Assembly (NCBI GenBank): GCA_002346545.1
Contig: DEAA01000016.1
Location: 1 to 21,175 of the forward strand
Direction of reading: 5' to 3'
Length of the DNA stretch: 21,175 nucleotides
Source: Acidobacteria bacterium UBA2994
GTDB lineage: Bacteria; Acidobacteriota; Vicinamibacteria; Vicinamibacterales; UBA8438
Shown here: one piece after another, positions 18,422 to 19,546 of the stretch
Numbering within the stretch: the stretch's first letter is position 1
How the letters are laid out: each line of letters starts with the position of its first letter
Notes under the pieces: model-generated
The model's database searches: none
Seen by the model: the letters and a program-made list of their open reading frames with translations, nothing else
Told to the model about the DNA's origin: nothing
Made by a program: the position numbers and the translations under genes

Positions 18422-19546
18422 GTGCCGGAAGCCTTCTCCTTCGAGGTGACTCATCGCTGCGGGGCCGCCCGCGCGGGTGTGCTGATCACGCCCCACGGTG
18501 CCATAAAGACGCCAGCCTTCGCGCCGGTTGGAACACGTGGTGCGGTCAAGTCGGTGACGCACCGGGACCTGGTCGGCCTAGGTGCCCAGATCTTGCTGGC
18601 GAATACCTACCACCTTCACCTCCGTCCAGGGGGCGACCTGGTGGGACGCGCGGGCGGGTTGCATGACTTTATCGGCTGGGACCGGCCGATCCTCACCGAC
18701 AGCGGCGGTTATCAGGTTATGAGTCTGTCGGACCTGCGGAAGCTGACTGAGAAGGGTGTGGAATTCCGCAGCCACATCGACGGGTCGAAGCATATGCTGA
18801 CACCGGAACGCAGCATGGAAATCCAGCGGCTTCTGGGCAGCGACATCGTGATGGCTTTTGACGAATGCCCCCGTGCCGACCGTCCGCGCGACGAAATTGC
18901 CGCGAGCATGGAAATGAGCATGCGTTGGGCGCAGCGGAGTCGAGAGGGTTTCAACGCAGGCGGCGAACATGCAGAACGGTCTGCCTTGTTCGGTATTCAG
19001 CAAGGCGCGCTCGACGAAGATCTGCGCAAGATCAGTGCCGATAAGCTGGCCGATATCGGGTTCGATGGATATGCGATCGGCGGTCTGGCCGTGGGCGAGG
19101 GACAGGAGGCCATGTTCGCCACACTGGACTTTGCCCCCGCGCAGCTCCCACAGGATCGCCCTCGTTATCTCATGGGCGTGGGTAAGCCGGACGACCTGGT
19201 GGGTGCGGTTGAACGCGGTGTCGACATGTTCGACTGCGTGTTGCCAAGCCGATCCGGACGAAATGGACAAGCGTTTACCTGGAACGGCCCGATGAACCTT
19301 CGCAATGCGCGGTTCGCGGAAGACACCGATCCTCTGGATAATCGCTGCACTTGCGACACGTGTAACACCTACTCGCGCGCCTATCTCCACCACCTCGTGA
19401 AATCACAGGAAATTCTCGGTGCAATGCTGATGACCGAGCATAATATCGCTTTCTACCAGCAGTTGATGCAGGCAATGCGCGATGCGATTGGGGAGGGTAG
19501 ATTTGCTACCTTTGCCAAGGATTTCCGCCGGGATTACTTGCGCTGA
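18422..19546 (+). CDS. tgt: Queuine tRNA-guanine transglycosylase (apparent two-source hybrid)
   Basis: This enzyme exchanges guanine 34 for preQ1 in GUN-anticodon tRNAs. The 374 residues are complete. D93 (LTDSGGYQ) is the proton acceptor and D271 (MFDCVLPSRSGRNG) the nucleophile. The zinc ligands are C309, C311, C314 and H340. GIQQGALDEDLR and GGLAVGEGQEAM are intact. Spacings from D93 to D271 to C309 agree with the Zymomonas enzyme. Residues up to about 85 (TPHGAIKTPAFAPVGTRGAV) read unlike alphaproteobacterial Tgt. From M100 on (MSLSDLRKLTEKGVEF, SDIVMAFDECPRADRPRDEI) the text is sphingomonad-like, and GC falls downstream. The GTG start at 18422 has no Shine-Dalgarno. The activity call is firm; whether this exact protein exists in one organism is doubtful. 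Confidence 0.9.
   Translation: MPEAFSFEVTHRCGAARAGVLITPHGAIKTPAFAPVGTRGAVKSVTHRDLVGLGAQILLANTYHLHLRPGGDLVGRAGGLHDFIGWDRPILTDSGGYQVMSLSDLRKLTEKGVEFRSHIDGSKHMLTPERSMEIQRLLGSDIVMAFDECPRADRPRDEIAASMEMSMRWAQRSREGFNAGGEHAERSALFGIQQGALDEDLRKISADKLADIGFDGYAIGGLAVGEGQEAMFATLDFAPAQLPQDRPRYLMGVGKPDDLVGAVERGVDMFDCVLPSRSGRNGQAFTWNGPMNLRNARFAEDTDPLDNRCTCDTCNTYSRAYLHHLVKSQEILGAMLMTEHNIAFYQQLMQAMRDAIGEGRFATFAKDFRRDYLR
18674..18720. other. Likely junction between two source genomes
   Basis: This interval encodes Tgt residues 85-99, GWDRPILTDSGGYQV, conserved across bacteria at protein level and probably close at DNA level. To the left the codon choice is strongly GC-ending. To the right the protein becomes alphaproteobacterial and GC drops. 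Hand counts give 43 of 60 G+C at 15781-15840 against 34 of 60 at 19741-19800. A shared stretch of this kind is a typical place for an assembler or for PCR to switch templates. Confidence 0.65.

Follow-up and report, generated by a model that had tools for sequence, protein, structure and literature searches.

A tgt gene of two lineages on a contig of an Acidobacteria draft genome, very probably joined in assembly at a 22-base word

The contig and its features

The window, by which is meant the whole stretch of DNA analysed, is an entire contig (C3) of 21,175 bases from the draft genome of Acidobacteria bacterium UBA2994. The genome consists of 82 contigs, comprises 4.12 Mb and is rated 96.11% complete and 1.94% contaminated. 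Judging by the contigs and the contamination figure, it would be a metagenome assembly. The features of the contig considered here are as follows.

1..18686, no strand: left arm, to judge from matches to DNA of the relative G001 native to the genome of the bin
17163..18323, minus strand: ddl, D-alanine--D-alanine ligase, the native neighbour of tgt (NF002528, 446.4 bits, cut-off 262)
18422..19546, plus strand: hybrid tgt, 374 amino acids, residues 1-85 native and 86-374 Qipengyuania-like
18687..18708, plus strand: 22-base junction word, with which contig C22 of this assembly also opens (its bases 1-22)
18709..21175, no strand: right arm, foreign, from a Qipengyuania/Erythrobacter relative; it holds the rest of tgt, an M50B-like gene and rpsD
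19572..20333, plus strand: gene for an M50B-like peptidase, not native to the bin (PF13398, 135 bits)
20629..21111, minus strand: rpsD (30S ribosomal protein S4), likewise not native to the bin and cut by the contig end (NF003717, 199.7 bits, cut-off 116, profile positions 44-202 only)

The tgt reading frame is uninterrupted and reaches 502.7 bits with TIGR00430 (cut-off 306.75), matching positions 1-362 of the 368 of the profile, and 515.7 bits with PF01702. The high TIGR00430 score is a property of the spliced reading frame and does not turn it into a real gene. Elsewhere in the window, positions 14551-16746 encode a protein of 731 residues with seven HEAT_2 stretches and a C-terminal cyclophilin-type peptidyl-prolyl isomerase domain.

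Two sets of tgt loci were used for comparison. The own-lineage set contains the loci fetched for 11 of the 39 relatives searched; the reference relative, G001, is of the same genus as the window's genome. The alpha set contains 80 loci from the genome collection, taken from 591 confirmed matches. The names of 75 of these records are ones that we take to be Sphingomonadales, and the other five are named only as Alphaproteobacteria, Proteobacteria or Pseudomonadota. Selection of the 80 loci rested on their similarity to the hybrid, and the hybrid is alpha-like over three quarters of its length; a high identity on the right side is thus partly a result of selection, and a low identity on the left side is not. 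Among protein homologues, 120 of the 8000 scored were listed, and 119 were compared after exclusion of the window's own entry.

Lineage of the two arms

A preliminary description of the window had claimed that tgt is a hybrid of two genomes, that its first ~85 residues lack alphaproteobacterial features and that everything from residue 100 on is alphaproteobacterial. All three statements agree with the protein comparisons, in which the identities reverse between the arms. For residues 1-88 the identity is 64-80% with the 11 relatives (mean 71.5) and 45-52% with the 80 alpha loci (mean 48.1). For residues 97-374 the corresponding values are 49-53% (mean 50.6) and 79-93% (mean 84.0), the latter being high partly by selection. 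The two halves thus match different lineages, the opposite of best matches in a single genus, which the same description had named as the result that would speak against a hybrid.

To obtain diagnostic sites, the Tgt of Qipengyuania sp. GH25 was aligned with those of the 11 relatives and the 80 alpha loci; at such a site at least 9 of the 11 relatives are alike and at least 72 of the 80 alphas are alike, and 44 sites separate the groups. Within residues 1-88 the window has the own-lineage state at 11 sites and the alpha state at one, and within residues 89-374 it has the own-lineage state at none and the alpha state at all 32, so that the sites flip in one step. The GH25 protein is identical to the window at 289 of 289 positions in residues 86-374, and it is one of six among the 119 listed homologues that are identical across this part and have a different N-terminus. 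The best match to residues 1-85 among the same 119 is 42/85, and none of them is a same-lineage homologue intact over all 374 residues. G001 and GH25 differ at 189 sites; before residue 86 the window is G001-like at 31 of these, GH25-like at four and like neither at 12, and from residue 86 on it is GH25-like at 142 of 142. Protein sequence places the switch point between residues 85 and 100, and DNA sequence places it in the word 18687-18708. Protein, DNA and diagnostic sites alike assign the arms to different lineages.

The left arm is matched by G001 DNA at window positions 2-3083, 3092-6039, 6045-9187, 9198-11650 and 11647-18684, with 82-87% identity and on three contigs; to judge from these matches it is native along its whole length. 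Since a ddl-like reading frame lies divergently beside tgt in all 11 relatives read, the ddl-tgt pair is genuine.

The genes to the right had been described as fitting an alphaproteobacterium, with an S4 gene that reads as Sphingomonadales, and the DNA matches bear this out. The DNA of Qipengyuania sp. XHP0207 (L022) gives a single alignment over window 18590-21175 at 76% identity, in which tgt, the M50B-like gene and rpsD follow one another as they do in the window. About 76% is the closest DNA found over the whole right arm, and the foreign organism's own DNA is not among the matches. The rpsD DNA is 90.6% identical over 545 bases to that of Qipengyuania sp. ABI-127-1, the highest identity among 45 of the 154 matches for this gene and tgt. 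The M50B-like protein matches two entries without a name at 98% and 97%, its best named match is that of Qipengyuania flava at 76%, and a search of the genome found no second match to its gene. When the genome was searched with a 13 kb stretch of L022, no other contig from that neighbourhood was found. The matches were C3:18590-21175, a 67% match at C3:2687-3416, presumably within a native glyA-like gene (the name of the reading frame 2242-3525 is our own reading), and five short ones, 38 to 78 bases long, on C22, C5, C7 and C34.

Two other S4 genes are present in the genome, on C20 and C32, with 42% and 39% identity to the rpsD of C3. Of these, the one on C20 seems to be native and the one on C32 additional, because the latter (L016, G000:C32:33711-34172), used as a query, gives one match each in 17 of 20 relatives (39-47%) and none in three. 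The nearest entry to the C32 copy is 99% identical and the nearest named ones are 59-65% identical and of mixed phyla; this copy may be a sign of another foreign contig or of a second S4.

Base composition also changes, as had been noted for GC on the right side. The GC content falls from 0.643 (1-18686) to 0.577 (18709-21175), a value below those of all 11 left-arm slices of equal length (0.615-0.662). A comparison of tetranucleotide profiles, proposed in the preliminary description, gives a correlation between the arms of 0.22, against 0.37-0.58 for left-arm slices compared with the rest of the left arm. The right arm correlates with L022 at 0.46 and left-arm slices do so at 0.12-0.53. Tetranucleotide make-up by itself is weak evidence, because the whole left arm correlates with the DNA of Erythrobacter sp. 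SD-21 (0.65) as much as with C22 (0.62).

The junction word and contig C22

The junction word is present at only two places in the genome, namely C3 18687-18708 and the start of C22. It consists of codons for (P)ILTDSG(G), a segment conserved in Tgt. The same 22 bases are carried by six of the 80 alpha loci and by none of the 11 relatives, three of which are one base off. That both sources have the word is shown for the host by C22 (22/22) and for the donor only through the window itself.

Beyond the word, C22 diverges from the window and continues as native tgt, interrupted by two N gaps, and then as yajC (TIGR00739), secD (TIGR01129) and secF (TIGR00966). Of its three tgt pieces, two were aligned with G001 and agree with it at 132/144 and 112/124 residues, while G001 has 50% identity to residues 97-374 of the window. 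At the DNA level, C22 matches the G001 locus L004 with 82-91% identity over the end of tgt and over yajC. C22-like DNA running from tgt into the next genes is found in at least five relatives (L004, L006, L009, L010 and L014, among 22 of 44 matches). Together with the position of ddl beside tgt in the relatives, this establishes ddl-tgt-yajC-secD-secF as the native order. C3 and C22 are its two sides, and C3:1-18708 belongs with C22.

The edges of three N runs in C22, at 435-745, 1119-1412 and 8827-9118 (311, 294 and 292 bases), repeat the same 7, 24 and 23 bases. Because of these repeats the flanking pieces probably overlap, and the gaps are probably without real length; at the edges of another two N runs only 2 and 1 bases are repeated. 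A tgt split over two contigs also occurs in the relative G011, at C149:58837-59823 (residues 6-325) and C123:3-194 (residues 311-374), the second contig starting inside the gene.

A search of the genome with the Tgt of the window gave two further matches, both on C22, the first of which starts at residue 90. Only one 5' part of tgt, the one on C3, turned up in the genome, as against two 3' parts. One 5' part and two 3' parts that separate at one word are what a chimeric node of a de Bruijn graph leaves behind, and the opening of C22 is the observation that decides for a chimera.

Origin of the join

The explanation that fits these results best, with a probability of about 0.97, is that tgt on C3 is an assembly chimera in which sequence of the bin's host was joined at the 22-base word to that of a Qipengyuania/Erythrobacter relative. 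The word, the start of C22 and the lineage of the arms are direct observations; the steps between them would be the following. Both organisms would have been in one sequenced sample, with 18687-18708 in common, and the foreign genome would have the word exactly and differ just before 18687. At a small k-mer size the word would be one de Bruijn graph node with two entries and two exits; with k = 21, a word of 22 bases (k+1) would be a single shared edge. An assembler taking the wrong exit would produce C3 from the host left arm, the common word and the foreign right arm, and the true right arm of the host, with its own copy of the word, would become the start of C22.

The preliminary description had ascribed the join to a template switch by the assembler or by PCR at the codons GWDRPILTDSGGYQV. 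The place was right, as the word lies within the (P)ILTDSG(G) codons, and of the two mechanisms the results favour the assembler over PCR. Short common words can prime PCR template switches, and such a switch during library preparation could in principle have produced the joined molecule. Rare chimeric molecules, however, would leave the native contig unbroken at this base, and C22 starts exactly there. Because the native path breaks at that base, the coincidence of the junction with the C22 start points to the assembler, and a PCR origin is highly improbable.

Natural homologous recombination, which had already been judged the less likely cause, would mean that, in all host cells or a part of them, a segment of 2.5 kb or more from a Qipengyuania relative had entered the chromosome at the conserved tgt word. 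Recombination, too, favours conserved stretches, and the join is in frame with a full-scoring Tgt. A natural recombinant would have lost the native 3' part or would have it with a full gene of its own; instead, the same assembly contains the rest of native tgt, followed by yajC-secD-secF, which starts C22 at the first base of the word and is without a 5' part. The foreign arm moreover reaches the contig end, the last 21 bases of which are unique in the genome, and as far as the contig goes no native sequence resumes. The lineages are also distant, their Tgt proteins being about 50% identical, and we give this origin next to no credence. Hardly to be credited either is a recent exchange between the distant lineages, in which some host cells would carry a Qipengyuania-like tgt-M50B-rpsD segment and others keep the C22 locus; if true, it would imply a working hybrid Tgt joined within the DSGGYQV segment. 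Least probable of all is an ordinary tgt of one organism with a diverged N-terminal part. The single alpha-like site of the 12 in residues 1-88 agrees with it, but these residues are nearer to the organism's own relatives than to the alphas, so that this part, rather than having simply diverged, is native to another lineage. A single divergent gene is rejected on the one-step flip of the diagnostic sites together with the separate native 3' part.

With the assembly chimera as the preferred reading, the hybrid tgt is, on present evidence, no biological feature. The distrust expressed earlier of the linkage between ddl and the M50B-like gene was justified: the linkage is false and arguments drawn from it would be wrong, although only the sequence to the right of 18708 is foreign and the ddl-tgt pair is real. 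The hybrid protein sits as a one-member entry (P0001) in the protein database searched, and the foreign rpsD is a false extra marker-gene copy in a bin rated 1.94% contaminated. The locus is a worked example, of value for quality control, of distant lineages joined inside a conserved protein motif, and since the bin also contains the severed partner contig, the assembly by itself is enough to demonstrate the join.

Misassembly by k-mer assemblers is treated in PMC8172020, and in the account of PMC8171044 chimeric nodes in de Bruijn graph metagenome assembly give rise to inter-genome chimeric contigs. As in that account, two species have a stretch in common that can be entered by two routes and left by two, a contig crosses from one species to the other, and a second contig, here C22, starts at the common stretch. 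The chimeric nodes described there concern evolutionarily similar species, whereas the present lineages are distant and have only a 22-base word in a conserved motif in common, with the graph deduced from the contigs. With respect to the Tgt family (TIGR00430), both arms are ordinary Tgt sequence, and the hybrid scores 502.7 bits against 501.2 for the intact Qipengyuania protein. The hybrid is, however, on present evidence the product of no organism, and each of its two sources has an ordinary Tgt of its own.
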